This document shows, piece by piece, positions 5,353 to 61,880 of a stretch of DNA of 64,000 bases (positions within the stretch are counted from its first letter, which is position 1; each line of letters begins with the position of its first letter). The position numbers were made by a program, and so were the translations under genes. A model generated the notes under the pieces. That model was not told where the DNA came from. It worked only from the letters and a program-made list of their open reading frames with translations, and searched no databases. Source of the DNA: Rothia sp. (in: high G+C Gram-positive bacteria) (GTDB lineage: Bacteria; Actinomycetota; Actinomycetes; Actinomycetales; Micrococcaceae); the NCBI GenBank assembly GCA_030524105.1, contig JAUNHE010000003.1:124001-188000 (forward strand), read 5' to 3'.

Positions 5353-5354
5353 GG

Positions 5355-6014
5355 GTGGTTTTATGGCTGAGGGATAAGCCCAGTATTGACGAGATGGAGC
5401 TATGGCCTGATTTAGTCTGGCGTATGTCCGCCCTCTTGCGGGCAGGCTCTAGCCCAGCAGCAGTTTTTACTAGATTGGCCCTTGAACTGCCACTTCCTGA
5501 GCCTGCTAAGGATCCTGTGGAAAGGTTGCTGGCTGCTGCTGACCGGGCTGCCTTCTTGCAGGCCCGGCAGGACGTTGAGTTTGTGATGGCTGGGTGTGCC
5601 CGCCAGGCCCGGGCCGGTTTACCGGTGGGGCAGGCCTTATCGGATATGCAGGTGAGGCGGTTACATTCTCGAAAGCGCCTTGCTGAGTTAGCTGCCTGCT
5701 GGCGGGTCAGCGAGGTGACCGGCGCCCCTCTGATTGATGTTCTTGAGCGCCTGGCTCACTACTATGAAAACGATATTGATCTTTACCAGGCCCGGCAGAG
5801 CGCTATGTCTGGGCCTAAAAGTACCGCCCATCTTTTGTCCTGGTTGCCTTTGTTGGGTCTGGGCTTAGGCCTGCTCATGGGAACTAATCCCTTGGGGGTC
5901 CTCTGCGGTTCTGCCTTGGGCGCTTTGGCTGCTGTTTTTGGGTTGGCTTTAGCCTGCGCTGGGAGGATGTGGACTGGGCGGCTGGTGAAGTTAGCAGAGC
6001 GGGGGCAGCTTTAG
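5355..6014 (+). CDS. tadB: TadB-like inner-membrane platform protein
   Basis: A 219-residue type II secretion F-domain protein. The N-terminal ~150 residues form the cytoplasmic helical domain (LVWRMSALLRAGSSP, then VSEVTGAPLIDVLERLA, the conserved T2SF signature). Two predicted membrane helices follow near the C-terminus (LLSWLPLLGLGLGLLMG and LCGSALGALAAVFGLALA). The GTG start at 5355 has GGGAGG about seven bases upstream. It is short compared with classical TadB (about 320 residues) but normal for the reduced actinobacterial cluster. It presumably pairs with the next gene to form the platform contacted by TadA. Confidence 0.82.
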   Translation: MVLWLRDKPSIDEMELWPDLVWRMSALLRAGSSPAAVFTRLALELPLPEPAKDPVERLLAAADRAAFLQARQDVEFVMAGCARQARAGLPVGQALSDMQVRRLHSRKRLAELAACWRVSEVTGAPLIDVLERLAHYYENDIDLYQARQSAMSGPKSTAHLLSWLPLLGLGLGLLMGTNPLGVLCGSALGALAAVFGLALACAGRMWTGRLVKLAERGQL

Positions 6015-6506
6015 ATGTTCTCACGCTTGCCATCTTGCCTCCTGCCCCAGAAAACTCTGGATGAGCCGGTATTTGTTTCTGCTGCTATTTATTTGGACTT
6101 ATTCAGTGCCCAGCTTCAGGCTGGTTTAGGTTTGATTGCCTGCCTGGAAAATTTAGCTTTGGTAGATGGGGGACGATTTGGTCCAGAATTTTCTTGTGTG
6201 GCTGCCCGATTACGAGCTGGAGCTAGCTGGGACCAGGCTTGGCAGCTGGGGGAGCTGGCTGCTGAGCTGATTCCTGTGCGCGATGCGGTGGGTTTTATGC
6301 TGGATACAGGGGCGCCGGCAGCTAATTTTTTGGGGATTTTGGCGCAGCGGCAGCGTAGAAATGAGTATCGACAGGCAGAGAAGGCCGCTGCTCGCCTGAG
6401 CGTTAAATTGGTCTTGCCCTTAGGCCTGTGTTCTTTGCCGGCTTTTATTTGCCTGGGTGTTATTCCGGTTCTTTTGGGGCTTATTCCGGGAATTATGGGC
6501 TCCTAG
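6015..6506 (+). CDS. tadC: TadC-like platform protein
   Basis: A 163-residue T2SF-type membrane protein whose ATG directly follows the tadB stop codon, so the two are almost certainly co-translated. It has the cytoplasmic motif LDLFSAQLQAGLGLIACLENLAL and the characteristic C-terminal segment VLPLGLCSLPAFICLGVIPVLLGLIPG, which matches the conserved TadC ending with its membrane helix. It is the second platform subunit of the pilus machine. There is no obvious independent ribosome site. Confidence 0.82.
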   Translation: MFSRLPSCLLPQKTLDEPVFVSAAIYLDLFSAQLQAGLGLIACLENLALVDGGRFGPEFSCVAARLRAGASWDQAWQLGELAAELIPVRDAVGFMLDTGAPAANFLGILAQRQRRNEYRQAEKAAARLSVKLVLPLGLCSLPAFICLGVIPVLLGLIPGIMGS

Positions 6507-6531
6507 GCTTTTGGGGGGTAAGCCCTTGTGC

Positions 6532-6574
6532 ACAGGGGCCGTTTTAAGGGGGTGAGGGCCTGGACTTATCCACA
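6532..6574. promoter_or_regulatory. Near-palindrome and DnaA box between tadC and the pilin gene
   Basis: An 18-bp near-perfect palindrome GCCCTTGTGCACAGGGGC (6532-6549, one mismatched pair) is followed by a perfect DnaA box TTATCCACA (6566-6574). The ~200 bp gap separates the platform genes from the pilin gene and probably holds the pilin promoter. No terminator-type T-run follows the palindrome. Confidence 0.4.
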
Positions 6575-6711
6575 GATTTTTGTTTTTAGCTACCGGATTG
6601 GTCCCCAAGGGAGATAGTAGAAAAGAGGGTCATTCCTCAGCTAAGCCCGTTAGGTGGCCTGCAGCTCTTGCGGGCCGGGGATCTGTATTTATTAGGAGAA
6701 AGGGGATTAAA

Positions 6712-6936
6712 ATGCCAGATGTGAAGGGGAAGGAACTCTGCTCTTTAGAGGATAAGGAGTGTCTACAGGTAGATTTGCTTGAGGACCGGCAGGCGGGAGC
6801 CAGCACGGCAGAGTACGGGATTGTTATGTTGGCAGCGGTAGGTTTTGCTGGTTTGCTGGTGGTTATCCTCAAGTCCGATGAGGTACGCGGCTTACTGCTT
6901 GATCTTATTCGTAATGCGCTTTCGCTAGCTGGGTAG
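6712..6936 (+). CDS. Flp-like prepilin, DUF4244 family
   Basis: A 74-residue protein. A hydrophilic ~32-residue leader rich in charged residues is followed by GASTAEYGIVMLAAVGFAGLL. The Gly, then Glu-Tyr at +5/+6 within the start of a hydrophobic helix, is the class IVb (Flp) prepilin processing pattern. I choose ATG 6712, preceded by AGGAGAAAGGGG at 6694-6705. It is the likely major pilin polymerised by TadABC. The leader peptidase (TadV) is not in the window. The family name DUF4244 is from memory; the pilin reading is inferred from motif and position. Confidence 0.82.
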   Translation: MPDVKGKELCSLEDKECLQVDLLEDRQAGASTAEYGIVMLAAVGFAGLLVVILKSDEVRGLLLDLIRNALSLAG

Positions 6937-6986
6937 CTTCTTGGGCCGGCGCTTAAAGGCGTCGGCCACATGCTTGATCTAATGCG

Positions 6987-7355
6987 ATGTTAAGTGTTAC
7001 CGATACGAATAAAAAGGGCTGTGAGGGAGCTGTTACAGCAGAGTTTGCGGTTATTCTTCCGGCTGTTGTTTTTATGCTGGCCTTACTCTTGGGGGCAGCA
7101 GCTACCGGGATCTGCCAGCTGCAGCTAGAAGAAGCAGCTAGGGTAGCAGCCAGGGCTGCGGCCCGGGGGGAAGCACAGGCTACTATTCGTGGTCTTACTG
7201 GCCAGATTGATCCTGATATTAGGGTTTCTGTCTTAGAGCAGAGCGGTTGCTGTCTTCAGATACAAACGCAGCGGCAGGCTCCGGGACTTATTGGGGCAAT
7301 GACCGGGTGGCAGCTGAGCGCTCAGGCTTCGGTTCCCTTAGAGAGCCTAGAATGA
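6987..7355 (+). CDS. tadE: TadE-like pseudopilin
   Basis: 122 residues with GAVTAEFAVILPAVVFMLALLLGAA, the TadE signature: a Glu five residues after the cleavable Gly-type junction, then one long membrane helix. The rest is an extracytoplasmic domain with two cysteines (SGCCLQI). It lies between the Flp-like gene and the next TadE/G-like gene, whose ATG overlaps this stop codon (ATGA). It is a likely minor pilin. No strong ribosome site precedes ATG 6987. Confidence 0.8.
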   Translation: MLSVTDTNKKGCEGAVTAEFAVILPAVVFMLALLLGAAATGICQLQLEEAARVAARAAARGEAQATIRGLTGQIDPDIRVSVLEQSGCCLQIQTQRQAPGLIGAMTGWQLSAQASVPLESLE

Positions 7356-7735
7356 TTGGGGTTGCAGTGGATTCTGACCGGGAGCGCGGTTCTGGGACTG
7401 TTCTGGCCCTGGGGCTGATACTGGCTGTACTGGTCTTATGCGTTCTTGTATTAGGGCTTGTGGCTGCTCTTACGGCCAAGCAGCGCGCTACTTTAGCGGC
7501 CGATCTTAGTGCCCTGGCAGCAGCTGATGCTGCCCGGGGCAGAATCAGTGGCCAACCCTGTGAGCTGGCGGCCAAGGTTGCCCGGGACAATGGGGCGGAG
7601 CTACTTGCTTGTGCTAGCCCTGATCGGGATGGGATCGTTCTGGATGTTCGGGTACGGGCAAAAATAGGGGGGCCGCTTGACTTTTTGGGTTATGCTGAGG
7701 CAATTTCCCGGGCCGGTCCACCACCGCTGACTTAG
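7352..7735 (+). CDS. TadE/TadG-like protein of the helicase/secretion neighbourhood
   Basis: A 127-residue protein starting at ATG 7352, which overlaps the TadE stop by four bases. After a short charged leader, GSGTVLALGLILAVLVLCVLVLGLV forms one membrane helix, followed by a small extracytoplasmic Ala-rich domain (AADLSALAAADAARG) typical of Tad-associated Rv3655c-like proteins. An upstream in-frame start at 7247 would only add residues overlapping tadE. The 3' end overlaps the helicase gene by four bases, tail-to-tail. Confidence 0.75.
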   Translation: MIGVAVDSDRERGSGTVLALGLILAVLVLCVLVLGLVAALTAKQRATLAADLSALAAADAARGRISGQPCELAAKVARDNGAELLACASPDRDGIVLDVRVRAKIGGPLDFLGYAEAISRAGPPPLT

Positions 7736-10101
7736 GGGGCTGAGCTGCTGCCGGCAGCGATGATGAGCTTGAGTAGCTTTTGAGCGGCTTCTTTTGCCAG
7801 GGGCTCATTGCGGCTACCGCAGCGTGGTGACTGGACGCAGGAGGGGCAACCCTGGCTGCAGCGGCAGCTGGCTATGTTTTTGAGGGTGGCAGGGAACCAG
7901 CTCAGGGCGGCTTCAAAGCCGCGTTCGGCAAAACCGGCTCCGCCTTGCTGGCCGTCATAGACAAAGATCGTGGGTAGACCGGTGTCCTTATGGGAGGGGG
8001 TAGAAAGCCCGCCAATATCCCAGTGGTCGCAGGTAGCAAACAAGGGTAGCAGTCCGATAGCTGCGTGCTCTGCTGCATGGAGGGCTCCGGCAAGGTCCTT
8101 GTCTTCGATTCCAGCCTCAGCGACATGCTGTTGTGGAACTGCCAGCCAAAAGGCCTTGGTGCGTAAATTCTGTGCTGGCAGTTCCAGGCTTTCTTCACCC
8201 AGGTTCTCTTGGCCGGGTAAGGATTTTCTTTGAAAGGAGACTACTTGGGTTCGTACCTTGACTTGGCCAAAGCACAGCTGAACCGGCCCCCAGTCTAGGC
8301 TGCGTTCTGTGGTGAGGATGCTGATATCTGTTAGGTCCCTGGCCTGGGTATAGTAGGTGGGGCGGACCTTTCGCAGGCTAATGACTGCCTCTGCTAGGTC
8401 TAACTCCTCTACTAGGTAACTTTGGCCCTGATGGGTGTAGATAGCTCCGGGGTGGCCTTGGTGGAGGGCTTGGCTGCTGTCCATGCTGCCGATCACTGCT
8501 CCACTTGCCAGGTCAACAAGTTCTAAAATTTTGCCCGCCCCAGACCGTAAATCTACAAGTTGGCTGGCAGATTCTGTGCCAGTCCAAAACCAGCCGGTGG
8601 CCCGCTGCCTGAGGTAGCCCTGCCTGCCTAACCTGTGCAGCAAGTCCGGGGTGCTGGGGCCAAATAGTTTGATTTCTTCTTCTCTTAAGGGCAGTTCAGC
8701 TGCTGCGGCACAGAGGTGTGGGGAGAGCAGATAGGGGTTATGTGGATCAAACACATTGGCTTCTACGAGGGTAAAGATATCTTCTGGATGGTGCACCAGA
8801 TAGTTATCTAGGGGGTCCTGGCCTGCTACGAAAACCGCTAAGCTAGCTTGGCCACTACGTCCGGCCCGGCCTATCTGCTGGAAAAAAGATGCTCGACTAC
8901 CGGGCCAGCCGGCTACGATAACAGCCTCAAGCCCCGATATATCTATGCCCAGTTCCAGGGCAGAGGTAGCAACCATGCCTAGAATTTTTCCTGAGCGTAG
9001 GTCGGCCTCAAGCTGGCGGCGTTCCTGGGGTAAAAAGCCGGCGCGGTAGGCTTGAACCCGTTGAGAATAGGAGGGTTTAATTCTTTCCAGATGCTGTTGG
9101 GCCAGCTGGGCTAGGGCTTCTGCTGCGCGGCGGGACTTAACAAAAACAATACTAGACTGATCTGCACTGACTAAGCTGGCTAGCATACGGGCACTGTCTG
9201 TTAAGGCCGATCCCACCGAGGCTTGCTGCTGCTGCTCTTGCTCGTTAAGGCTGGCCCCAGGTTCCCAGAGTAGGATGTGCTTTTCCCCGCGGGGGGAGGT
9301 GTCCTGGGTTAAGGCCTGGACATCTTGTGGCTGAACACCCAGTAAATGGGCAAAGGATTGTGCCGGTTCTGCTGAGGTGGCAGAGGCTGCAATAAAGACT
9401 GGATCTACCCCGTAGTGTCGGCATATTCTGCGTAAACGACGTAGCAGCAGGGCGCAGTGGGCCCCAAAAACACCCCTGTAGTGGTGGACCTCATCCAGGA
9501 TGACAAAGGCTAGATTCCGTAAAAACCTGCGCCATTGGCTGTGCTGACTGAGCAAACTAAAGTGCAGCATGTCGGGGTTGGTGAGTATAAAGTTACTGTG
9601 TTGACGAATCCAGGCCCGTTCTTCTGTGGGGGTATCGCCATCGTAGCTTGCTGGGATCAGCCCGGTGAGTTTCAGTTTATGGAGGGCAGTGAGCTGGTCG
9701 GCAGCTAGGGCCTTGGTAGGGCAGAGGTAGAGAACGCTAGCTTGATCACGAACGATAGCGTTGAGGCTGGGCAGCAGGTAGGCCAGGGATTTGCCGGAGG
9801 CTGTACCGCTGGCCATGATCAGGTGGGTTTTATCCTGGCTCAGGTAGCTTTTTTGTGCTTGTTCTGCCAGCTGAACCTGGTGCCGGTAGGGTTCTTTAAT
9901 GCCTTGGGCTTTGAAGCTAGCTAGGAGATCAGCTTCAAGCCAGCTGGGCCAGGAGGCATACTGGGCTGCTTGGGACAAGCTGCTCTGCAGGTGAAGGAGC
10001 TGGGCTGGTTGGGGGCCAAATCCTAGCTGGTTCGTTTTGCTCTGGGCCTGATCTTCTTGTCTCTGGTCAAGGCCAGGTTTTTGGGGTGGATTCTGCTGCA
10101 C
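7732..10101 (-). CDS. DEAD/DEAH-box helicase with C-terminal DUF1998/zinc-binding domain
   Basis: 789 residues. The helicase motifs are in order: Walker A ASGTASGKS (about residue 98), II LDEVHHYRG (about 201), III AASAT and VI QQIGRAGRSGQ (about 412). The last ~190 residues hold an MrfA-like DUF1998 region with the cysteine set CRCSQGCPSCVQSPRC (about 745-765), which probably binds a metal. This is the helicase that conventionally neighbours actinobacterial Tad clusters; a role in mitomycin-type DNA repair is known for relatives. The GTG start at 10101 lacks a clear ribosome site and lies inside a perfect inverted repeat, so the true start may be further downstream. Confidence 0.9.
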   Translation of the reverse strand: MQQNPPQKPGLDQRQEDQAQSKTNQLGFGPQPAQLLHLQSSLSQAAQYASWPSWLEADLLASFKAQGIKEPYRHQVQLAEQAQKSYLSQDKTHLIMASGTASGKSLAYLLPSLNAIVRDQASVLYLCPTKALAADQLTALHKLKLTGLIPASYDGDTPTEERAWIRQHSNFILTNPDMLHFSLLSQHSQWRRFLRNLAFVILDEVHHYRGVFGAHCALLLRRLRRICRHYGVDPVFIAASATSAEPAQSFAHLLGVQPQDVQALTQDTSPRGEKHILLWEPGASLNEQEQQQQASVGSALTDSARMLASLVSADQSSIVFVKSRRAAEALAQLAQQHLERIKPSYSQRVQAYRAGFLPQERRQLEADLRSGKILGMVATSALELGIDISGLEAVIVAGWPGSRASFFQQIGRAGRSGQASLAVFVAGQDPLDNYLVHHPEDIFTLVEANVFDPHNPYLLSPHLCAAAAELPLREEEIKLFGPSTPDLLHRLGRQGYLRQRATGWFWTGTESASQLVDLRSGAGKILELVDLASGAVIGSMDSSQALHQGHPGAIYTHQGQSYLVEELDLAEAVISLRKVRPTYYTQARDLTDISILTTERSLDWGPVQLCFGQVKVRTQVVSFQRKSLPGQENLGEESLELPAQNLRTKAFWLAVPQQHVAEAGIEDKDLAGALHAAEHAAIGLLPLFATCDHWDIGGLSTPSHKDTGLPTIFVYDGQQGGAGFAERGFEAALSWFPATLKNIASCRCSQGCPSCVQSPRCGSRNEPLAKEAAQKLLKLIIAAGSSSAP

Positions 10102-39902: not shown

Positions 39903-41138
39903 CTAGTAGGTCCAGACTTTGGTATAGGCAGAGCGCACCTTATTTTGGCTTCTTAACAGGGCAATCTGTAGGGAGCAGGTGAAGGAAGCTACTGCCAGGA
40001 TCATACAGGTGGCGGCCATAATGGACCCACCGGGAATGGGATCGTAGTAGGTTACTAGATACAGGGCTAGGGAACAGAAGCCTAAGAAAAACCCTGCGAT
40101 GCTCATTAGCGGCACCAGAATAAAACCGGAGTAACGGGTGTTGGAGTTGTCCATCTCCTCTGAGCGCATGAACCGTAGCAGGGCCAGCCCAAGGACGGTC
40201 CACATGCTGGTGAGAATCAGGGAGCTGGCCACATCTACCGGTCGGTGCCAGCCGTTAATGATGGTGGAGAATCCTGCTGCCAGGGCAAAACTGCTGCCTA
40301 GAACAGCCACAATAGGGCGAAGCTTTTTGGGCGCCGCTAAAAAGAGGGCAGCCCCTGCTGCTGCGGCAAAGGTGGTATGCCCAGAAGGAGCAGAGTTAAT
40401 CATGGCTTCCTGGATACCGTAGTTGGGTTTAGTGATGACGTAGTTTTTGAGAATCTGGGTGCTAAGGTTAGCAGCCAGAGCAACAGCTATACCAATGATG
40501 GCGGGCACAAAACGATGTTTCCAGATCAGAACAAAGATGAGAGCGATGACGGCCAAAATTCCTGCCGTTGCGGGAACCAGGTCTAGCATACTGCGGGTTT
40601 GGCTCTGGAAGTTCATAAACTGGTAGGAGAATTCGTTAAAGGAGCTTTCGTCCAGGAGCTGGCCAATCCTGCTGCGGATAAAAAAGGTTAAGGCAGCAAT
40701 AAGCGCAGTGGCCAGGACAAGGAGGGCAAAGATGTGCTGTAGCATGGCCCAGACGGTAGGTCGGGTGCGGCGCATCTTCTCCAGGCGCTTGTTGTGGCCA
40801 AGTCCCTGTTCTGCTTCTAGTTCCCGTTGAGGAAAGGAAGTAGGGTCCGGCAGGATCGGGGGTTCTGTCTCTGGCAGAGCTTGGGGCAGCTGGCGGGTAG
40901 GGTTAAGCCTGTCTAGCGGGGCAGGTGTGGCCGGGCTAGGCTGCTCTAGGGGTAAAAGGACGGTTTTTTCCTGTGACCTGTCCTCTTCTCCTGCGGGGGG
41001 TGAAATAATCTGTGTTTCTTGTGTAGAGATATTTTCCGCCTTTGAACGCGCAGCGGTAGAGGGAAGATCCGGCAGAACCTGTGTTTTCTGCTTATCTTCC
41101 CCCAGAGCATAGGGCTGTTCGTCCATGTTGCTTTTCAT
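39903..41138 (-). CDS. PAP2-family membrane phosphatase
   Basis: 411 residues. The N-terminal ~130 residues are hydrophilic and P/Q/E-rich, followed by six helices containing the acid-phosphatase motifs NSAPSGHTTFAAAAGA and NGWHRPVDVASSLI (catalytic His, Arg and Asp). These enzymes dephosphorylate lipid phosphates such as undecaprenyl pyrophosphate. The long soluble N-terminus is unusual for the family and may mediate interaction. It ends five bases before the MBL gene stop (convergent). Confidence 0.85.
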   Translation of the reverse strand: MKSNMDEQPYALGEDKQKTQVLPDLPSTAARSKAENISTQETQIISPPAGEEDRSQEKTVLLPLEQPSPATPAPLDRLNPTRQLPQALPETEPPILPDPTSFPQRELEAEQGLGHNKRLEKMRRTRPTVWAMLQHIFALLVLATALIAALTFFIRSRIGQLLDESSFNEFSYQFMNFQSQTRSMLDLVPATAGILAVIALIFVLIWKHRFVPAIIGIAVALAANLSTQILKNYVITKPNYGIQEAMINSAPSGHTTFAAAAGAALFLAAPKKLRPIVAVLGSSFALAAGFSTIINGWHRPVDVASSLILTSMWTVLGLALLRFMRSEEMDNSNTRYSGFILVPLMSIAGFFLGFCSLALYLVTYYDPIPGGSIMAATCMILAVASFTCSLQIALLRSQNKVRSAYTKVWTY

Positions 41139-41302
41139 AGAACTATTGAGAACTGCCTTTCCAGGGCTGCGATTAATATCCGGGGATTGTTTGGATATTT
41201 CACCTATTGTTTCAGGAACTCTTGAGGTTTTCCTGTGAGGAAACCTGGCATCATCTTAGGGTATATTTTTATAAAAAACGAAGAAGGAGGCATGTTTGCC
41301 CG

Positions 41303-42355
41303 ATGAAGCCTATCAAGCTACCTCCTTTTTTTAGCGGCAAACCGCTGCCGGCACTGACAGATATTCTTTCACAGGCTCACCTTGTCAGCCTGCCTATGGT
41401 GACAACCTTTCGTGCTATTAGCCTGCGTGAGAGTTTGCTGATCCGAGGGCCAGCAGGTTGGGGCGAATTTTCACCCTTTTTAGAGTATGGTCCCAGGGAA
41501 TCTGCAGCCTGGCTTGCCGCTGCTCTTGAAGCGGCCTGGCTAGGTTTTCCCAAGTCAAAAAGGAATAGCCTTGCTGTCAATGCTAGCCTGCCTGCCGTTA
41601 AAGCTGAAGAGGTTAAAACCATTTTGGCAAGGTTTGATGGTGATCTTGCAGAAATAAAAGTAAAAGTTGCCCAGGTTGGTCAAACTTTAGCCGACGATAT
41701 AGCTCGGCTGCGTGAGGTACGGCGTTTATTTCCCCGGGCCCGTCTTAAGGTGGACGCCAATGCGGGCTGGAATTATCAGCAGGCCTTGCTGGCCTTAAGG
41801 GAATTAGAAGAGTTTAACCTGCTCTATATTGAACAGCCCGTTGCTTCTTTATCGGACATGGTTGCTTTGCGCCAGGCTATACGGCAGGAGGGCTTGCGGA
41901 CCCTTGTAGCAGCTGATGAGCTGGTACGTAAGGCTGAGGATCCTTTAGAGGTTGCCCGTAGGGGGGCTGCTGATGTGATTGTTGTTAAGGTGGCTCCCCT
42001 GGGGGGAGTTAGGCGGGCCAGCCAGATTGTGCAGCAGGCTGGCTTACCCGCGGTAGTCTCTTCGGCTTTAGAGACTTCGGTGGGCATCAGGGCAGGCTTA
42101 GCCTTGGCTAGTAGTTTGGATAGCTTGCCCTACGGCTGTGGGCTGGATACGGTTTCTTTGCTGGAGAAAGACGTTTGCCTGCCGTCCTTGAGGGCAGAGC
42201 AGGGCTGGCTGAGGCTAGGACAGGAGCCCCAGCCCCAGCCCCAGTTACTGCGGGCCTATCGGCCGGATCGAGAGCGCTGTGCTTGGTGGCAGCAGCGGCT
42301 GAAATTAACCTACACAGCTCTTGAGCAGATGATAGGGCAGGACGGGGACGGATAG
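41303..42355 (+). CDS. menC: o-succinylbenzoate synthase
   Basis: An enolase-superfamily enzyme of 350 residues that dehydrates SHCHC to o-succinylbenzoate. Ligands and acid/base residues are visible in order: AEIKVKVAQ (Lys), LKVDANAGW (Asp), YIEQPV (Glu), VAADELV (Asp) and VIVVKVAPLGG (Lys). I choose ATG 41303 with AAGGAGG at 41284-41290; the 12-base spacing is long, but earlier starts give a Lys/Arg-rich non-family N-terminus. In related genomes menC and menD lie close together; here an AT-rich block follows. Confidence 0.92.
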   Translation: MKPIKLPPFFSGKPLPALTDILSQAHLVSLPMVTTFRAISLRESLLIRGPAGWGEFSPFLEYGPRESAAWLAAALEAAWLGFPKSKRNSLAVNASLPAVKAEEVKTILARFDGDLAEIKVKVAQVGQTLADDIARLREVRRLFPRARLKVDANAGWNYQQALLALRELEEFNLLYIEQPVASLSDMVALRQAIRQEGLRTLVAADELVRKAEDPLEVARRGAADVIVVKVAPLGGVRRASQIVQQAGLPAVVSSALETSVGIRAGLALASSLDSLPYGCGLDTVSLLEKDVCLPSLRAEQGWLRLGQEPQPQPQLLRAYRPDRERCAWWQQRLKLTYTALEQMIGQDGDG

Positions 42356-42359
42356 AGAC

Positions 42360-42545
42360 TCAGTGCAGGTTTTTAATTTCTTTAAGAAATTCGTAGCAGA
42401 CAAGGAATATAACCGAAAATATGAGGGTGCCGAATACGTATATTGGTTCCATCCAGCCATCGCCAGATAGGAGTCCAATAACTTGAAGTAAGGCACAGTA
42501 AAACACCCAGACAATGAGTAGTTTTTTAATGTTGTTTTTAACCAT
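42360..42545 (-). CDS. Small two-helix membrane protein, unknown
   Basis: 61 residues: MVKNNIKKLL then two hydrophobic helices (LIVWVFYCALLQVIGLL and YVFGTLIFSVIFLVCYEF) and a short Lys-rich end. ATG 42545 has AAGGAAA seven bases upstream. Codons are much more AT-rich than in the neighbouring men genes, suggesting recent acquisition. I do not recognise a family. It ends four bases from the menC stop, convergent. Confidence 0.55.
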   Translation of the reverse strand: MVKNNIKKLLIVWVFYCALLQVIGLLSGDGWMEPIYVFGTLIFSVIFLVCYEFLKEIKNLH

Positions 42546-43533
42546 TTTTATTTCCTTGGTGGTCTAGATTGTAAAATTTCTACCGGCCTGATGGGGCAAG
42601 AGAGGGTGCGTCAGGCGGGTATTCAGCGGCAGTGCTGGCGTTTAGCTGCCTTGAAATAAGCTGGATTAAGCGGTGCTGAAGTGCAGAAATATTAATATAA
42701 TAGGTATGAACATGGGGTAATCTTCCGCTGTTGTTTAACGTGGTGATTAGAGGTTAAGTTGTCGCCTATTACGAGTAAAATTCTAGACTTTTTAAGTATA
42801 GATTTTAATGAACCACTTTTCTTTATTGCTTGAAATAGAAAATAATAATTACCATTTTTTAGCTAGGTTGTTGCCCTTTAAACATTTAATAAAAATCTGT
42901 TGTTTTTACCCGGAAAGTTATTTAAAGGGTTTAGCCAGAGGGCTTGCCGCCTGGAGAGCCCTGCCTGTAGAAAATGACTTACGCTGGCTTCTTCTGCTTG
43001 CTTGTTTTTCTGCTGCTAACCGTCTGCTGGCTTTATGGTTACCTGCTGGTGGGCAAAGTTTGGTTTGGGTGTAGCCGGTTATTCACGCTACGGCAGCTAT
43101 CGTTTTACCTAGTCAAGGCAGGATAGATTGTACGAAAACAAAATAGTGAAGTGAATAAAGAGGGTGGGTCAACCCTCCTTGCTGTTCAACTGAAAAGACA
43201 GATGCAGCTATGTTACATACGGTTCGTTGTGAATTTATGTGATTTATATCAACTTGTCTCAAACGGCTAAAAAATGTTTGACCAAGTAAGGGCTGGGCCG
43301 GCGATTGGATCCCTCAATATATGGGGTATTTATCGTTAGTCTTGGTGGCAAAAGCCCACAAAGAGGCCGGCAAATTTCTGGCCTGAGCCCAGTAGTATAT
43401 GTTATTGTTACAGGACGAAGAAATATTTTCTTTGTAAATTATTTAGCGTTCGAACCGATGCCGGTGTATCCCCGTAAGATCCGGTACGGATCGCTGATAT
43501 TCCCCGGTATCCTGACAGGAAAAAGAGGCTAAA
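42546..43533. other. AT-rich stretch between menC and menD without a confident gene
   Basis: Nearly 1 kb with base composition unlike the flanks. Visible signals: a TATAAT hexamer (42696-42701), a GCCTGA/TCAGGC stem (42586-42616) and a GAGGGT/ACCCTC hairpin (43160-43177) that may be a terminator. Two open frames (42808-43074 and 43305-43532) have poor ribosome sites and unconvincing products, so I leave them out. It may be decayed mobile or horizontally acquired DNA. Confidence 0.5.
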
Positions 43534-43695
43534 ATGTTCCTACTTCAGTCTTCCCCCAAGGCATCGAAAGCTCAATATGTAAGTAATCGAGCCATTAAAA
43601 ACTTTAAGCAAATATTCATGACTCCGGAGCTGACAGAAGAAGAGCGCTGGAATCTCTACTTTGATTATTCTGCAGTAACGTCAAAGGCAGAATAA
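43534..43695 (+). CDS. Small 53-residue protein, unknown
   Basis: The frame MFLLQSSPKASKAQYVSNRA, IKNFKQIFMTPELTEEERWN, LYFDYSAVTSKAE starts at ATG 43534 with AGAGG five to six bases upstream, and a good terminator follows the stop by five bases. The sequence is soluble and ends with an acidic helix; no family comes to mind. The combination of ribosome site, natural composition and terminator makes it likely to be real. It is AT-rich like the island around it. Confidence 0.55.
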   Translation: MFLLQSSPKASKAQYVSNRAIKNFKQIFMTPELTEEERWNLYFDYSAVTSKAE

Positions 43696-43700
43696 AAACT

Positions 43701-43730
43701 AAGGTCCCCGTCAAGTCTGGCTGGGACCTT
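43701..43730 (+). terminator. Terminator after the small gene, before menD
   Basis: AAGGTCCC (43701-43708) pairs with GGGACCTT (43723-43730), followed by TCCTTGTT. It separates the 53-residue gene from menD, which therefore needs its own promoter. Confidence 0.7.
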
Positions 43731-43844
43731 TCCTTGTTAGAGCGGTGAAGGGGCCCTGCTGTGTCCGGGGCCGGTGAGTAGACCCCACATCAGCAGTTAA
43801 TGATTGTTGGGACGGAAGGAGACTCCCGTACTAAGATAGAGCGT

Positions 43845-45524
43845 GTGAGTAATGCCCCAATGCCCAAATCTCTCCTAACTGCTATTTCTGTTCTAGATTC
43901 CCTCGTCCGTGCCGGTATGCGGCATCTTTTAATTTCTCCGGGATCTCGCAATGCTCCCTTAGCTTATGCAGCGGCTGCTCTTGACCGTGCCGGCGTCTTG
44001 ACTGCCCATGTCCGTATCGACGAACGTAGCGCTGCTTTTACAGCCTTGGGAATAGCTAAAACGATTGAAAAACCGGTGGGCATTGTGGTCACAAGCGGTA
44101 GTGCTGTTGGGGAACTCTTGCCGGCAGTGATGGAGGCCTATCACTCGGGCATACCCCTCGTTATTATCAGTGCCGATAGGCCGGGGTATCTGAGGGGCAC
44201 AGGGGCAAATCAAACCACAGACCAGGCCGGTATGCTCAGTAACTTTGTGCGTGCCCAGGCTGATCTAACTTCCTACCCAGAAGATGAAGCAGGCCAGCAA
44301 ACCCAGGATTTTTCTACTGCCTTGGCGGTAGCCTTTGGCCGTCGTAGCGATAACTGGAATTTTCCCTCGGGCCAGCCAGTTGGCCCCGTCCACCTCAATC
44401 TGGCTTTTGATACGCCGTTAAGCCCAAGCCCTCAGCTGGCTAGCTACTACCGGCGATGGGCGCAGACGCTCACAGACTTGGACCAGCCCCCGCTGGTTGC
44501 CTTAGGAGATGCAGACTGGGTGGACTGGCACCATCTGGATAGCGCTACTCTTCCAGAACGTAAGACTCTGGTGATTGCCGGCGATGGGGGCGGCCCCCTA
44601 GCCCAACGTTTTGCCCAAAAACACCGGCTGCCACTCTTGGCAGAACCATCCTCGGGGGCTCGCTTTTCACGCTATGCCATCAATGCCTACCGGGATTTGC
44701 TGCCTCATTGGCAGGGGGAAAAAATTGAGCGAGTGGTGCTTTTTGGCCACCCCACCCTGTCTAGATCAGTCACAGCCCTGCTTAATGACCCTAGCCTGGA
44801 GAAGGCACTGTATATGAAGCAGCAGGCTAGTTGGTTTGTGCCCGGACGCAGGCAAGAAAAAACCCTTGCTTCCCTGCTGGAGCTTGCTCAATTTGCTGGC
44901 CGCGGCAGCCAGGGTTGGCTGGAAGCCTGGCAAGAAGCTGGGGACAGGCGGCGGCAGGACTTGCTGGGTCAAGTAAAAAAATTCCGTGAGAGTGCTATTA
45001 ATGAAGGCAGGGCGGCAGGAATGTCTTTGGCCCTAGCCGCCTGGCAGCAGGCCGTGGCCAACCAGGAAATACTGGTGTGCGGTTCATCCAATATTATTCG
45101 GGATCTTGACCGTATTGCCCCGGCCAGTAATCAGGCTCCTCGTGTCTTTGCTTCTCGCGGTTTGGCCGGGATTGACGGCATGCTGGCAACAGCAGCCGGT
45201 GTTTCCTTAGCCAGTTTTAACCGCCGCGGTGGATCGGTAACACCGGTCCGGCTGCTCTGCGGCGATCTCACCTTTTTACACGATGCTATGTCTATGAACA
45301 TTGGTCCCCTTGAGCAGCTACCCTCCGTTAAAGTCGATGTTTTTGATGACGGAGGCGGGGGCATTTTTGCCGGTCTGGAACATGGCCAGCTGCTGGATCA
45401 GCCTGATTTTTCCCAGGACGTTAAGCGGTTTATGTCTACCCCCCATGCGGTAGACATAAAGAAACTGGCCCAAGTCTTTGCCGACAAGAGCGGCTTTGAG
45501 GTCAGGGTGCATTCTGGCAGCTAG
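43845..45524 (+). CDS. menD: SEPHCHC synthase (2-succinyl-5-enolpyruvyl-6-hydroxy-3-cyclohexene-1-carboxylate synthase)
   Basis: A ThDP-dependent enzyme of the menaquinone pathway joining isochorismate and 2-oxoglutarate. It has LLISPGSRNAPLAYA, HVRIDERSAAFTALGIAK (catalytic Glu), TSGSAVGELLPAVMEAYHSGIPLVIISADRP and the ThDP-binding GDLTFLHDAMSM...VDVFDDGGGGIF. The start is uncertain: GTG 43845 has a TAAGAT hexamer seven bases upstream (leaderless option), ATG 43860 gives the tightest family fit, and ATG 43800 would be the longest form. The stop codon lies in the middle of a 22-bp palindrome. Confidence 0.93.
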   Translation: MSNAPMPKSLLTAISVLDSLVRAGMRHLLISPGSRNAPLAYAAAALDRAGVLTAHVRIDERSAAFTALGIAKTIEKPVGIVVTSGSAVGELLPAVMEAYHSGIPLVIISADRPGYLRGTGANQTTDQAGMLSNFVRAQADLTSYPEDEAGQQTQDFSTALAVAFGRRSDNWNFPSGQPVGPVHLNLAFDTPLSPSPQLASYYRRWAQTLTDLDQPPLVALGDADWVDWHHLDSATLPERKTLVIAGDGGGPLAQRFAQKHRLPLLAEPSSGARFSRYAINAYRDLLPHWQGEKIERVVLFGHPTLSRSVTALLNDPSLEKALYMKQQASWFVPGRRQEKTLASLLELAQFAGRGSQGWLEAWQEAGDRRRQDLLGQVKKFRESAINEGRAAGMSLALAAWQQAVANQEILVCGSSNIIRDLDRIAPASNQAPRVFASRGLAGIDGMLATAAGVSLASFNRRGGSVTPVRLLCGDLTFLHDAMSMNIGPLEQLPSVKVDVFDDGGGGIFAGLEHGQLLDQPDFSQDVKRFMSTPHAVDIKKLAQVFADKSGFEVRVHSGS

Positions 45525-54945: not shown

Positions 54946-56421
54946 TTAGTTGGCTTCCGCTAGCGCCTGGCGCACTCGAGCCCCTAGTTCCTCATGAACA
55001 GAATCCCAGTATTTAAGGGCACGCTCACGGATTTCATCCGAAACAACGGCCCCCACGTGGCCGGCAATGTTAGAAACAAGGCGGGCACGCTGCTCATCGT
55101 CCATGGTTTCAGCATAGAGGGTGCGAGCCTGACCAAAATCGTCGTCCTCTGCATGCAGAGTGTAGGCTGCCCGCACTAATTCGCCGTCAGCTTCCCAGGA
55201 TCCTTCGCCGGCCCGCTCAGCATCAGCGTGGGGGCCACCCAAGCTGTTGGGAGCATAGGTGGGGGTGTGCGGATCGTTAAAGTTGTAGCGCATGGCACCG
55301 TCGATGCTGTAATTGTTAACGGGAGCATTTTTAGCCTGGTTAACGGGGAGCTGGGCAAAGTTTGTGCCAACCCGGTAGCGGTGTGCGTCAGGGTAAGAGA
55401 AGATTCGTCCCATGAGCATCTTGTCGGGGGAAGCGGCAATACCGGGCACAAAGTTTGAGGGTGAGAAGGCAGCCTGCTCCACCTCAGCAAAGAAATTATT
55501 GGGGTTTTCGTTGAGGACCATCTTACCCACCTTGATCAGCGGGTAGTCAGCATGAGGCCAGACCTTGGTTAGATCAAAAGGATTAAAACGGTAGGTCTTG
55601 GCGTCTTCGTAGGGCATAACCTGCACGTATAGGGTCCAGCTGGGGAAGTCACCCTCGGCAATGGCCCGGTGGAGGTCTTCACGATGGACATCGGCATTTT
55701 CACCGGCTAGGCGATCAGCCTCTTCCTGAGTGAGATAGTCAATGCCCTGGTCAGTCTTGAAGTGGTACTTGATCCAAAAACGCTGGCCCTCCTTGTTGAT
55801 CCACTGGTAGGTGTGGGATCCAAAACCATCCATGTTCCGGAAGGTCTTGGGCAGGCCACGATCACCCATCAGCCAGGTGACCTGGTGTGCAGATTCGGTG
55901 CGCAGGCTCCAGAAATCCCATTGCATGTCGTGGGAGCGCAGACCGGTCTGGGGGTTACGTTTCTGCGAGTGGATAAAGTCCGGGAACTTAATGGTGTCGC
56001 GAATAAAGAAGATAGGGGTGTTGTTCCCTACCAGATCGTAGTTGCCTTCGGTGGTGTAAAACTTGATGGCAAAGCCACGTGGGTCGCGCCAGGTGTCGGG
56101 GGAACCTTGTTCACCGGCAACGGTTGAAAAACGGATAGCAAGATCGGTCTTTACCCCGGGCTGAAAGAGGGCTGCCTTGGTATAGGCGGAGACATCCTCC
56201 GTTGTCTCAAAGTAGCCAAAAGCACCGGTACCCTTGGCGTGCACTACGCGTTCGGGAACACGCTCGCGGTTAAACTGGGCTAGCTTCTCGACGGTGTAGG
56301 CGTCGTGTAGAACAATAGGGCCGTCGGGGCCAACGGTGAGTGAGTCGTTATCGGACGCCACTGGAGCACCGCTGGTAGTGGTAGTAAAACTACCGGGTTT
56401 GATCGGTTGATGAGCAACCAT
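54946..56421 (-). CDS. katA: Heme catalase (monofunctional)
   Basis: 491 residues, clade of small-subunit catalases. Catalytic His61 is in [11 protein letters not shown], Asn134 in [14 protein letters not shown], and the proximal heme tyrosine in [17 protein letters not shown] 56421 has AGGAG a few bases upstream. It degrades hydrogen peroxide. It lies directly downstream of a fur-family gene on the same strand, an order typical of FurA-controlled peroxidases in Actinobacteria. Confidence 0.97.
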
Positions 56422-56561: not shown

Positions 56562-57062
56562 TTACTTTTCTGCAGCAAATTCCTTACTCTGCGCTGCTGC
56601 CAGCTCGGCCTCTTGGTGGGTTTGACAATCGGTGCAGATACCCTGGTAGAGCACGTCTGCAGCCAGTAGAGCCATACCGTGCAGCTGGCTGGGGTGTAGG
56701 CAGGGGGCCTTCCCCTGGGGGCAGTCCACATCTTCGATCTTGCCGCAGCGGACACAATAGGCGTGGTGATGATTGTCTTCTGGCTGGCTCTCGTACCGGG
56801 CTGGGCTGGAAGGGGACCCAAAACGACGGAGCATGCCAATACTTACCAGGTCCGTGAGGACAACATAAACTGACTGGACCGTAATGGTGGGAATTTCTTG
56901 GCGCACGGCAGTTGCAATGGTTTCAGCGGTGGAGTGGGGGTTAGCCTGAACAGCGTTGAGAACAGCCAGGCGCTGTTTGGTGACCCTTCGGCCTTGGTTG
57001 CGTAGGGTCTTGATCCAGTTTTCTTTAAGTTCTGGCGGCCCTTCGTAGCTGTGCTGGCTCAT
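56562..57062 (-). CDS. fur: Fur-family metalloregulator (FurA/PerR-like)
   Basis: 166 residues. A winged-helix region (LRNQGRRVTKQRLAVLNAVQANPHSTAETIA, TITVQSVYVVLTDLVSIGMLRRFG) is followed by the metal/dimer domain with DNHHHAYCVRCGKIEDVDCPQG and a CxxC near the end (GICTDCQ). The HHHAYC and paired cysteines fit a structural zinc site plus a regulatory site. Because katA follows on the same strand, it most probably represses katA in response to iron or peroxide. ATG 57062 with GGAGG. Confidence 0.9.
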   Translation of the reverse strand: MSQHSYEGPPELKENWIKTLRNQGRRVTKQRLAVLNAVQANPHSTAETIATAVRQEIPTITVQSVYVVLTDLVSIGMLRRFGSPSSPARYESQPEDNHHHAYCVRCGKIEDVDCPQGKAPCLHPSQLHGMALLAADVLYQGICTDCQTHQEAELAAAQSKEFAAEK

Positions 57063-57791: not shown

Positions 57792-59711
57792 ATGCAAACG
57801 CAACATACGCTGACAGGTTCCGATCGAACCGATGAAGCTCTGCTGCAGGCAGTGCGAGAAGGTAATCTTGAATCATTTGGCGATCTTTACGAACGCTACT
57901 ATCCCAGGGCTAGGGCCATTGCAGCAGGACACACTGGAGATCAAGATCGCCTGGACGACATGGTCTCGGAAGCCTTTGCCCGAATTCTCCAGGCCCTTAA
58001 AAACGGTAAGGGACCACGTTCTTATATGGGGGCCTACCTGGCAACTACGATTGCTCACCTGGCCGGTGAGTACGGCATGCTGGCAGAACGGGAAATTCCT
58101 AGCCAAGCCGACCATATGGAATCAATGGAGTCTTTGGATGAGACCGTCCTGAAGCTTCACGGCTCGGCAGAAGCGATCACTGCTTTTACCTCCCTTCCTG
58201 AGCGTTGGCAAAAAGTTTTATGGCTAACGGAGATTGAAGCAAAAAAACCCCGTGAAGTTGCGGCGGATATGAATCTCACGGCCAATGCTGTTTCGGCGCT
58301 TGCGGTGCGGGCACGCGAAAGTCTTAAAGAAGGATTTTTAAGGGCTCACCAGAGTTCACCGGCCACGGCTGACTGTGACCGTTATCATGCTTATATTAGC
58401 CCTTATGTGCGGGGGTCTCTGAGTGCAAAACGGGCCCAGGCTCTTCAGGCCCATATGGAAGATTGCCGCTACTGCACCACCGACTATTTGTCCCTGGCGG
58501 GCATTAATAAATCTATGCGCAGCTGGATTTTTCCGGTTTTGGCTGGGTTAACGGTCTTTAGTACCGATGGCGCTGCCCTCCTGTCTCCAGCGAGCCTTGC
58601 TGCCGCCGGGCTAGGTACGGCTTCTGTTGCTGCGGGAGCTTCCTCGCAGGCTGCCGCTGGAACGGGCTTTAGCTTGTTTTCCCCCAAAAGCTGGGGCGGA
58701 GCCAGTAAGGTGATGGCTGGCGCTGCGGCGGCAACAACCGCTGCGGTGGCGGTTGCCGGCGGAGTGTTCTTTACAGATGCCCAACGCGAACGCACCTCTG
58801 TTTCGGACAAGCAGGAGCAAAGCTCGGTCACGGAGCAGGTCCAGGATAAAAAAACGTCGGCCAGCTCGGCCCCTCAGCAGACACCCTCCCAAGCTTTGGG
58901 GGCGGAATACAATAAATTTACCGATACCACCTGGATGAATGAACAGGCAGCCCTGGCCGGTATTGCTAGTCCGTCAAGCTCAGCAGAGGACCAACAGCCT
59001 GGGCAGGATATTCCCTTGGCTAGCTCACCAACTCCAGGGGCCGCTACTAGTTCTTTGGCAGAGGCCAGCGCCACCTCGACCGATGCTGTACTGCTTGACC
59101 CTACCGGAGCGGCCAGCCCCTCTCATCTTATGGTGGGTGAAATGGACCCTAGTCCCTTAATAAATCGGACTGACCCTGCCGATGGTTCAGGTCAAACTAG
59201 TAGCCAGGAGGCCGCTGCCGAGCCCGTCCAGTCCCTGGTCTCTACCGAGTTCAGGTCTGTTGAGCCCAGCCAACCTTCCCCAACAAGTCAACCTAGTCGG
59301 GGAGCTGAACCTAGCCAAACCCTTAGTCCTAGCCCATCGACTCAGCCCAGCCCGAGCCTTAGTCCTAGCTCGTCAGAGGCCCAGCCAAGGATGACGCAAC
59401 CAGCAGCTAGCCCAGAGCCCAGCCAGTCAGCTCCCCAGCAGGCTGACCCGGTCAAAGTTCCTGGCTGGTATGGCTCACAAACTTTTATGGACTGGCTAGC
59501 CAGCATCCCCTGGAATGATTTTGGCCGCCCCAGCTCGGAGGTGGCCAGCAATAGACTGTGCTGGATTAGCTACTACAGCGCAGACGGACGCTACCAAGAA
59601 TTAGCCTCCTACTACCTTCCGGCGGTGTTTTTAGATTCACCCTACACCCGATATACTTTGGCAGGAATCATGGGGTGGCAGCAGGCCATCAGTATCCAGT
59701 GCCAGCAGTAA
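57792..59711 (+). CDS. ECF sigma factor fused to zinc-finger anti-sigma-like region, membrane segments and extracellular tail
   Basis: 639 residues from ATG 57792 (AGGA nine bases upstream). Residues 14-72 are sigma-2 (LLQAVREGNLESFGDLYERYYPRARAIA, DDMVSEAFARIL). Residues 130-186 are sigma-4 (LPERWQKVLWLTEIEAKKPREVA). Residues 195-230 carry a ZAS-like zinc motif with H221-x3-C225-x2-C228 (QAHMEDCRYC). Hydrophobic segments follow (WIFPVLAGLTVFSTDGAALL; VMAGAAAATTAAVAVAGGVFF), then a ~230-residue Ser/Pro/Thr-rich stretch and a compact Trp/Tyr-rich C-terminal region (GWYGSQTFMDWLASIPW...TLAGIMGWQQA). Such fusions are known in actinobacterial ECF groups. htpX starts ten bases after the stop. Membrane tethering and signal-dependent release are inference. 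Confidence 0.85.
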   Translation: MQTQHTLTGSDRTDEALLQAVREGNLESFGDLYERYYPRARAIAAGHTGDQDRLDDMVSEAFARILQALKNGKGPRSYMGAYLATTIAHLAGEYGMLAEREIPSQADHMESMESLDETVLKLHGSAEAITAFTSLPERWQKVLWLTEIEAKKPREVAADMNLTANAVSALAVRARESLKEGFLRAHQSSPATADCDRYHAYISPYVRGSLSAKRAQALQAHMEDCRYCTTDYLSLAGINKSMRSWIFPVLAGLTVFSTDGAALLSPASLAAAGLGTASVAAGASSQAAAGTGFSLFSPKSWGGASKVMAGAAAATTAAVAVAGGVFFTDAQRERTSVSDKQEQSSVTEQVQDKKTSASSAPQQTPSQALGAEYNKFTDTTWMNEQAALAGIASPSSSAEDQQPGQDIPLASSPTPGAATSSLAEASATSTDAVLLDPTGAASPSHLMVGEMDPSPLINRTDPADGSGQTSSQEAAAEPVQSLVSTEFRSVEPSQPSPTSQPSRGAEPSQTLSPSPSTQPSPSLSPSSSEAQPRMTQPAASPEPSQSAPQQADPVKVPGWYGSQTFMDWLASIPWNDFGRPSSEVASNRLCWISYYSADGRYQELASYYLPAVFLDSPYTRYTLAGIMGWQQAISIQCQQ

Positions 59712-59721
59712 AGGATAAAAT

Positions 59722-60615
59722 ATGCACAGCCATCATAATGGGCTAAAAACTGCTCTGCTTATGGGGTCCATGCTAGGCTTTTTGGCAATTGTTGGGGCTC
59801 TTATAGCAGGCATGACCGGTAAGAGCTTTTTTATTTGGCTCTTTGCCTTATTTGGAGTCGCTACGGTAGCCTACACCTACTGGAATTCAGATAAGCTGGC
59901 CATTCGCTCCATGAATGCCTATCCTGTCACCGCTCAGGAGGTCCCGGGCCTCTACCGGATTGTTGAGGAACTATCCCAAAAGGCCGGCCAGCCTATGCCC
60001 CGCCTCTATGTTGCTCCCACTTTAACTCCTAACGCTTTTGCCACGGGGCGTAACCCCCAGCATGCGGCTGTCTGCTGTACGGAAGGTATTTTGCAGCTTC
60101 TGGATGAGAGGCAAATGCGGGCAGTGCTTGGCCATGAGCTCATGCACGTCTACAATCGAGACATTCTTATTGGCTCTATAGCTGCGGCGATAGCCTCAAT
60201 CATCACTTCTCTTGCGCAGTATCTCAGTTTTGCTGGAATCTTTGGCGGAAACCGTAACAATGGAGCCGGCAATATTCTTGGGACTGTTCTGCTGGCCTTT
60301 CTAGCACCCCTGGCGGCTTCACTGGTGCAGATGGCTATCAGCCGAACCAGAGAATTTGATGCAGATCAAGACGGAGCTGAGCTAACCCAGGACCCGCTGG
60401 CCCTGGCTTCTGCCCTAGCAGCCTTAGACGCCGGAATTGACAGTAGACCTCTGGTAACGGAGGATCAGCGGGTGGCTTCCACGGCTTCTATGATGATCGC
60501 CAATCCTTTTGGCAGACTAAAGCTAGACCGGGTTAACCTTTTTGCCACTCACCCACCCATGCAGGAGCGGATTGCCCGGCTTAAAAAGCAGGCAGAGCGC
60601 CTGGGACAGCTTTAG
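59722..60615 (+). CDS. htpX: HtpX zinc membrane metalloprotease
   Basis: An M48-family membrane protease of 297 residues. Two N-terminal helices are followed by the zinc motif HELMH (138-142), helices at about 150-175 and 190-205, and the third ligand in SRTREFDADQDGA. It cleaves misfolded membrane proteins facing the cytoplasm. AAGGA lies six bases before ATG 59722. It is ten bases downstream of the sigma-fusion gene and almost certainly shares its transcript, which makes it a candidate for processing that protein. Confidence 0.93.
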   Translation: MHSHHNGLKTALLMGSMLGFLAIVGALIAGMTGKSFFIWLFALFGVATVAYTYWNSDKLAIRSMNAYPVTAQEVPGLYRIVEELSQKAGQPMPRLYVAPTLTPNAFATGRNPQHAAVCCTEGILQLLDERQMRAVLGHELMHVYNRDILIGSIAAAIASIITSLAQYLSFAGIFGGNRNNGAGNILGTVLLAFLAPLAASLVQMAISRTREFDADQDGAELTQDPLALASALAALDAGIDSRPLVTEDQRVASTASMMIANPFGRLKLDRVNLFATHPPMQERIARLKKQAERLGQL

Positions 60616-60641: not shown

Positions 60642-61133
60642 TTAACGGTAGTTGACAAATTGCAGGTCCACTTCTAGGTCCGCTCCCTTTAGCAGGCTAA
60701 TAACCTGCTGAAGGTCGTCACGAGACTTAGAGGATACCCGCAGCTCGTCTCCTTGAATGTTTGCTTTAACTCCTTTTGGACCTTCCTCCCGGATCATTTT
60801 GGATATTTTTTTGGCCTGATCCTGGGCGATACCCTCTTTTATCTGTGCTTCAATCCGGTATTCCTTACCCGAGGCGTAGGGCTGGCCGGCATCAAGGGAC
60901 TTGAGGGAAATACCTCGTTTGACAAGTTTTGACTGAAAGACATCGAGGACAGCCAGGACTCGCTCTTGGGAGTTAGCCTTCATGAGAATGGCATCTGAAG
61001 AAAAATCAATGGAGGCCCCTACACCGCGGAAGTCGTAACGCTGGGAAACTTCTTTACTGGCCTGGTTAAGGGCATTAGATACCTCTTGTTTATCGACTTT
61101 TGAAACAATGTCAAAGGATGATTCGCTTGCCAC
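60642..61133 (-). CDS. YajQ-family nucleotide-binding protein
   Basis: 163 residues, DUF520: [39 protein letters not shown], and [11 protein letters not shown]-like [23 protein letters not shown]. Members bind cyclic-di-GMP or other nucleotides and influence transcription; the role in Actinobacteria is unclear. It lies convergent with htpX, as in M. tuberculosis (Rv0566c). Confidence 0.93.
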
Positions 61134-61790: not shown

Positions 61791-61872
61791 GGCAGATTAC
61801 CCGAGCGGCCAAAGGGGGCTGACTGTAAATCAGCTGGCACTGCCTACGGGGGTTCGAATCCCTCATCTGCCA
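61791..61872 (+). tRNA. tRNA-Tyr (anticodon GTA)
   Basis: A class II tRNA with acceptor GGCAGAT/ATCTGCC and discriminator A. The anticodon stem CTGA...TCAG holds the loop CTGTAAA, giving anticodon GTA. A long variable arm follows, then the T-arm GAGGG/CCCCC region around GGTTCGAATCC. CCA is not encoded. It is followed by a terminator. Confidence 0.95.
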
Positions 61873-61880
61873 CCGGGACT

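Follow-up and report, generated by a model that had tools for sequence, protein, structure and literature searches.

A candidate surface-sensing ECF sigma factor of Rothia that carries a zinc anti-sigma domain, a Ser/Pro-rich stalk and an orphan tip domain in one chain

Our analysis of a 64,000-nucleotide stretch of DNA (hereafter the window), positions 124001-188000 of a contig in a Rothia sp. genome of 2.19 Mb, identified one gene whose product joins an ECF sigma factor, a zinc anti-sigma domain, a predicted membrane helix, a Ser/Pro-rich stalk and a small C-terminal domain (CTD; Table 1). The best reading of this protein, to which we give a probability of about 0.58, is that of a surface-sensing, self-inhibited sigma factor that is freed by ordinary regulated proteolysis. 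The order of the domains, their conservation among relatives, a confident structure model of the tip domain and the presence of M50-family genes in the genome are direct observations.

Table 1. Features of the sigma factor locus, in positions of the window.
Feature	Position	Strand	Basis
Fused ECF sigma / anti-sigma / membrane / stalk / sensor-like protein gene, 639 aa	57792..59711	+	Open frame (ATG at 57792, stop ending at 59711); homologs in 20/35 Rothia genomes
Sigma region 2, residues 14-93	57831..58070	+	Pfam PF04542, residues 32-90; AlphaFold helices; Foldseek to sigmaE, AlgU, SigW
Sigma region 4, residues 114-187	58131..58352	+	Pfam PF08281, residues 129-178 (just under cut-off); TIGR02937 over 28-180; AlphaFold helices
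Fused zinc anti-sigma domain, residues 193-252, ligands C195/H221/C225/C228	58368..58547	+	Pfam zf-HC2; ligand conservation; AlphaFold helices
Predicted membrane helix, residues 307-325	58710..58766	+	Hydropathy peak 1.70; AlphaFold confidence low here
Ser/Pro-rich stalk, residues 335-555	58794..59456	+	Composition; PVEPxxP-type repeats in many relatives
CTD, residues 558-639, C590 and C637 a probable disulphide	59463..59708	+	Alignment; structure model; co-variation of the Cys pair
htpX, M48 membrane protease	59722..60615	+	NF002839 above cut-off; conserved block; action on the sigma protein hypothetical
Fur-family regulator, divergent neighbour	56562..57062	-	Pfam PF01475
Catalase	54946..56421	-	Pfam PF00199
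DUF520 protein, presumably YajQ	60642..61133	-	Pfam PF04461

In canonical ECF signalling, the sensor/anti-sigma factor and the sigma factor are separate proteins. Here, a one-protein signalling line would run from the cell surface to the promoter, and its topology, its disulphide, inhibition in cis, sensing and the cuts with their order would be as follows. On the cytoplasmic side, sigma regions 2 and 4 would be kept inactive by the fused zinc domain, and a single membrane helix would anchor the sigma and zinc parts. On the outer side, the long Ser/Pro-rich stalk would cross the cell wall and hold a small domain closed by a disulphide. A signal at this tip, perhaps damage or a ligand of the wall or surface, would lay open the stalk, or a stretch close to the membrane, to an initial cleavage; a protease of the site-2 type, usually a member of the M50 family, would next cut within the membrane; and cytosolic proteases would then strip the zinc domain to give a free sigma part. 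With sensor, anti-sigma factor and sigma factor in one chain, cause and effect could be traced in a single molecule. We favour regulated intramembrane proteolysis from the tip because two M50 loci are encoded elsewhere in the genome, because proteolytic activation has already been proposed for groups ECF48, ECF52 and ECF53, as described in a review of such factors (PMC8999054), and because a Streptomyces coelicolor strain in which SCO4117 is reduced to its sigma part is described as less affected than the deletion strain (PMC5826349).

The claim of an earlier reading, made from the sequence only, that a single 639-residue frame holds both sigma regions was borne out by profile and structure analyses, and a TTG upstream of the ATG would give an alternative product of 653 residues. 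The Pfam model Sigma70_r2 matched residues 32-90 above its cut-off (E 5e-8) and Sigma70_r4_2 matched residues 129-178 just under its own (E 2.6e-5; 24.2 bits, cut-off 25.7). The NCBIfam sigma70-ECF model (TIGR02937) gave 58.3 bits, above its cut-off of 42.9. The protein has sigma2 and sigma4 and no further sigma region, as expected of an ECF sigma factor. Directly after sigma4, zf-HC2 matched residues 195-228 above cut-off (E 1.5e-6), and the ZAS-like motif H221-x3-C225-x2-C228 of the sequence-only reading proved exact, with C195 now added as the fourth ligand. The four ligands are invariant among 13 aligned relatives. Each of the 20 Rothia rows in the alignment (19 and R. kristinae) reads CHCC, and so do 120 of 127 homologs overall, the remaining seven being six HHCC and one FHCC.

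An AlphaFold model of the full protein (mean pLDDT 67.8, pTM 0.41) placed mostly confident helices within residues 14-93 (sigma2), 114-187 (sigma4) and 193-252 (zinc domain), with poor confidence at residues 1-10, 100-123 and 252-345, the last of which includes the predicted membrane stretch. The best Foldseek matches were sigmaE, AlgU and SigW, each solved together with its anti-sigma factor; the whole-model TM-scores are low (about 0.2) because only the sigma parts align. A crude pattern for an ECF-type autoregulatory promoter, run on 14 upstream sequences, returned nothing convincing, its two loose matches both lying in the close pair L046/L047.

With E held below 1e-29, 20 of the 35 Rothia genomes yielded a homolog of the fusion, and with the zinc ligands CHCC in every Rothia row of the alignment, the fusion is not a product of chance. 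At 1e-3 the number of matching Rothia genomes rises to 23, but the additional matches are to ECFs that are broken or of another kind. When the sigma and zinc parts were searched as a profile, matches came from 97 of 295 genomes in the family at 1e-15 and from 100 of 296 in the class at 1e-25, counts that include some short ECFs without the extension. A domain scan of 50 homologs (the window protein, 7 from Rothia and 42 of 46 long named loci) found Sigma70_r2 in 50, Sigma70_r4_2 in 49 and zf-HC2 in 46, and a few of these proteins bear assorted external domains. The nearest sigma sequence is that of locus L033 (75% identity) and the nearest HtpX that of genome G002 (74%). In a quick sigma tree of 128 rows, Rothia and the genus g5 (Kocuria) form one clade (SH-aLRT 99) that sits inside Micrococcaceae, apart from a Streptomyces-like clade; finer placement is unsure owing to long branches (R. 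kristinae and one g5 protein) and a distant outgroup. A literature search found no publication on these Rothia/Kocuria fusion proteins, which an existing ECF group may cover.

Second ECF-like matches were seen at some loci. Two ECF-zinc fusion genes stand in tandem between fur and htpX in the g5 genomes G274 and G227 (L196, 2841-6921; L197, 3006-7489), a local duplication of the switch. At L025 (G021) and L026 (G008), positions 1501-2202 hold a second, diverged ECF-like match of 27-28% identity with an in-frame TAA, which is perhaps a broken paralog.

The hydrophobic segments expected from the sequence-only reading appeared as two hydropathy peaks over threshold in the window protein, at residues 307-325 (mean 1.70) and 246-264 (1.63). 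The latter is weaker and conserved, and only 307-325 has clearly higher counterparts in relatives: when the best peak after the zinc domain was taken in each of 27 Rothia and g5 proteins, all reached at least 1.70, the window protein being the lowest and its 26 relatives ranging from 1.82 to 2.72. One of two Streptomyces-like homologs scanned had no peak above 1.36. Flanking charges weakly favour an N-inside orientation (mean K+R of 1.15 before and 0.63 after the helix), and in the window protein they are reversed (2 before versus 3 after). This reversal, the low membrane peak, the low model confidence at that stretch, the Streptomyces-like homolog with no such peak and the lack of a convincing match to the upstream promoter pattern count against our favoured reading.

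Beyond the helix, the long Ser/Pro-rich and presumably external tail that had been proposed is evident in the composition of the stalk (30 Pro and 44 Ser in 225 residues), and it leads to an end domain that folds separately in the models. Stalk length varies from about 220 to 850 aa among Rothia proteins with an intact end, and the window protein's own stalk has no tandem repeats at score 30. Giant versions of about 1270 and 1155 aa are encoded at L042 (G017, 4917-8720) and L045 (G018, 5662-9126), with stalks made of PVEPELP- or PTDPVEP-type repeats and a length far from that of near-identical sigma relatives (L037, 654 aa).

The CTD, of about 85 aa, was modelled with a pLDDT of 89.5 and a pTM of 0.75, and searches of Pfam and the PDB with the window copy gave nothing significant. 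A CTD profile search of the 35 Rothia genomes matched the ECF locus only, in 18 of them, and the idea that the domain is shared with other surface proteins was rejected on this result. Both cysteines of the pair are present in 12 of 16 aligned CTDs, neither in 4, and in no case only one of the two. This all-or-none pattern is what would be expected of a disulphide, and hence of a location outside the cell, making a C590-C637 bond probable. Counting against our favoured reading are the 4 of 16 CTDs that lack the pair, R. kristinae, in which the CTD found no match, and the ends of g5 proteins, the 13 that were read differing from the Rothia CTD. The other ends that take the place of this domain in relatives offer a ready-made comparison for working out what is sensed outside.

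Two further observations concern these outer ends. In a set of eight g5 loci (L176-L181, L200, L201), the last 20-40 residues are short and Trp-rich in five (for example TWVWVPRSEW), and three of the eight tails have a close Cys pair; these tails stand where the Rothia proteins have their tip domain. At L036 (G016), the 3' end of the sigma gene has an apparent frameshift inside the CTD, and the profile accordingly matches one part of the domain in each of two frames.

Among the alternatives, we considered a redox release in cis, in which oxidants would drive the zinc out of its CHCC site, after which a disulphide would form and the zinc domain would let go of the sigma regions; the sigma part would then act while tethered or after later cleavage, and the outer domain would merely place or tune the protein. 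The ligand spacing of 26/4/3 is identical to that of RsrA (Cys11-His37-Cys41-Cys44), whose oxidative release is described as needing its N-terminal cysteine (PMC4960319), and that position is a cysteine here (CHCC rather than HHCC) and in the 120 CHCC homologs. The genes nearby also count in its favour, as the sigma gene of the window lies beside a Fur-family regulator and a catalase gene. In the 17 Rothia loci with both the sigma gene and htpX (the window apart), a Fur-family gene is directly upstream in all 17, with katA beside it in 14; of 15 other Micrococcaceae loci, 6 have katA in the fetched DNA. However, the fur block is equally present in 14 of 14 Rothia loci that have no sigma gene, with katA in 10 of them; of 11 g5 loci, no more than 4 showed katA and 9 showed fur; and 83 homolog loci outside Micrococcaceae show neither gene in the stretch examined (about 6 kb a side or less). 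Moreover, a purely structural zinc site would be compatible with four conserved ligands too, and RsrA itself is reported to react about 500-fold more slowly with peroxide than with diamide (PMC4960319). Redox release is an unlikely account of the protein, yet the strongest rival to our favoured reading.

Redox release and proteolytic release are not mutually exclusive. It is conceivable, if doubtful, that the protein is a two-input switch, in which a new tip that reads the wall or surface would be combined with a redox-capable CHCC lock, the first acting from outside by proteolysis and the second from inside by oxidation, and in which lineages would have swapped the tip and changed the stalk length while keeping the switch.

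A second alternative is that HtpX cuts the protein on its cytosolic or membrane side and so frees the sigma part, as the sequence-only reading had suggested of HtpX or another protease. As that reading had stated, htpX starts ten bases past the sigma-gene stop, and its product scored 429.3 bits against a cut-off of 412 for the HtpX equivalog NF002839, with a Pfam M48 match as well. The pairing is constant in Rothia and Kocuria. Among the 20 Rothia genomes that possess the sigma gene, 18 have htpX immediately after it in the same orientation, and the remaining two are unjudgeable, as L033 stops at the edge of its contig and the G030 locus is divided between two contigs. All 11 g5 loci that were fetched, out of 22 g5 genomes with a match, show this arrangement too. 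The expected pairing in more distant relatives did not hold up, as none of 98 homolog loci elsewhere has htpX adjacent. These comprise 15 other Micrococcaceae loci, in 3 of which htpX lies beyond katA-fur, and the 83 loci outside that family, where no htpX was found within the examined stretch.

The spacing and the history of the block also speak against a dedicated role of HtpX. Across 28 pairs (the window and 27 relatives), the gap between the two genes is under 50 nt in 7, as in the window, but 127-204 nt in 21, and at least 7 gaps, mostly from one close Rothia group, contain a stable hairpin with a T-run. Downstream, yajQ follows in all 17 of the Rothia loci with the sigma gene and SseB is present in 6; the 14 loci without the sigma gene have fur-htpX-yajQ in unchanged order, all with SseB. 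In an HtpX tree, which does not recover Rothia as one clade, these 14 loci fall in two groups that both keep htpX, and losses of the sigma gene in two Rothia groups are likely from this distribution. Since htpX is near-universal in Rothia (33 of 35 genomes, and 32 of 32 of good quality), its co-occurrence with the sigma gene is uninformative. The section on HtpX in PMC9263693 describes it as a factor of envelope quality control, with no mention there of sigma release. Given the block order without the sigma gene, the gaps and the outside loci, the adjacency favours HtpX little more than it favours Fur or YajQ. HtpX is probably a co-located stress gene and not a dedicated releasing protease, and release through it is distinctly unlikely; proteolytic release as such is in line with what is proposed for ECF48/52/53. 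The htpX block, being found also where the sigma gene is missing, is a caution against inferring function from adjacency.

Finally, it is highly improbable that release plays no part in controlling the sigma part, the protein instead acting at the membrane or being a surface protein with a relict sigma part, since conservation is strong in the sigma regions and at the zinc ligands (mean column identity among 13 relatives of 72% over residues 1-265, versus 40% in the CTD alignment), even though our analysis found no target promoters or regulon and the outer part evolves fast.

Elsewhere in the window, a tRNA-Tyr (GTA) at 61791-61874 is the sole tRNA and the sole Rfam match, and the G+C content dips to 0.493 at 40001-44000, compared with 0.52-0.56 in the remaining 4-kb steps.

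The surface-sensing sigma factor that we favour can be compared with several known systems. The closest in layout is ECF52, represented by SCO4117 of S. coelicolor, which is described as having the same order of ECF sigma factor, zinc domain, membrane region, Pro-rich extension and C-terminal external domain (PMC5826349). The window protein shares the proline-rich extension, its relatives have Pro-rich repeats, and the ligands are CHCC in 6 of 6 Streptomyces-like rows. These Streptomyces proteins are presumed orthologs, by family, NPCBM and TetR neighbour: they end in NPCBM (4 of 4 scanned, of 6 fetched), whereas the Rothia protein ends in an orphan domain, and a TetR gene is upstream in 3 of 3 such loci checked, as described for SCO4117/ECF52 (PMC5826349). 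In addition, stalk length varies widely in Rothia, and the two clades separate in the quick sigma tree. Membership of ECF52 by a carbohydrate-binding module was rejected, as no NPCBM was detected in the window CTD or in the 16 CTDs, the latter searched up to E 1.

Other likenesses are more general. ECF53 and ECF48, likened here by description, are ECF groups of actinobacteria in which a zinc finger at the C-terminus is combined with one or two membrane helices (PMC8999054). IutY of Pseudomonas putida (ECF243) also has sigma and anti-sigma in one chain and is described as being freed by Prc and RseP (PMC8999054), but it serves iron-starvation cell-surface signalling in a Gram-negative bacterium, and the likeness is one of description and not of sequence. 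RsrA and related ZAS anti-sigma factors share the CHCC ligands and their spacing (PMC4960319); RsrA is a separate 105-aa protein, whereas the Rothia zinc domain is fused and, by prediction, anchored. The overall architecture is of a known kind, in agreement with the statement in the sequence-only reading that ECF groups with fused anti-sigma regions exist in Actinobacteria, ECF48, ECF52 and ECF53 being such groups (PMC8999054). What is new here is the orphan tip domain, restricted to this protein in Rothia, together with the variation of the stalk that carries it.
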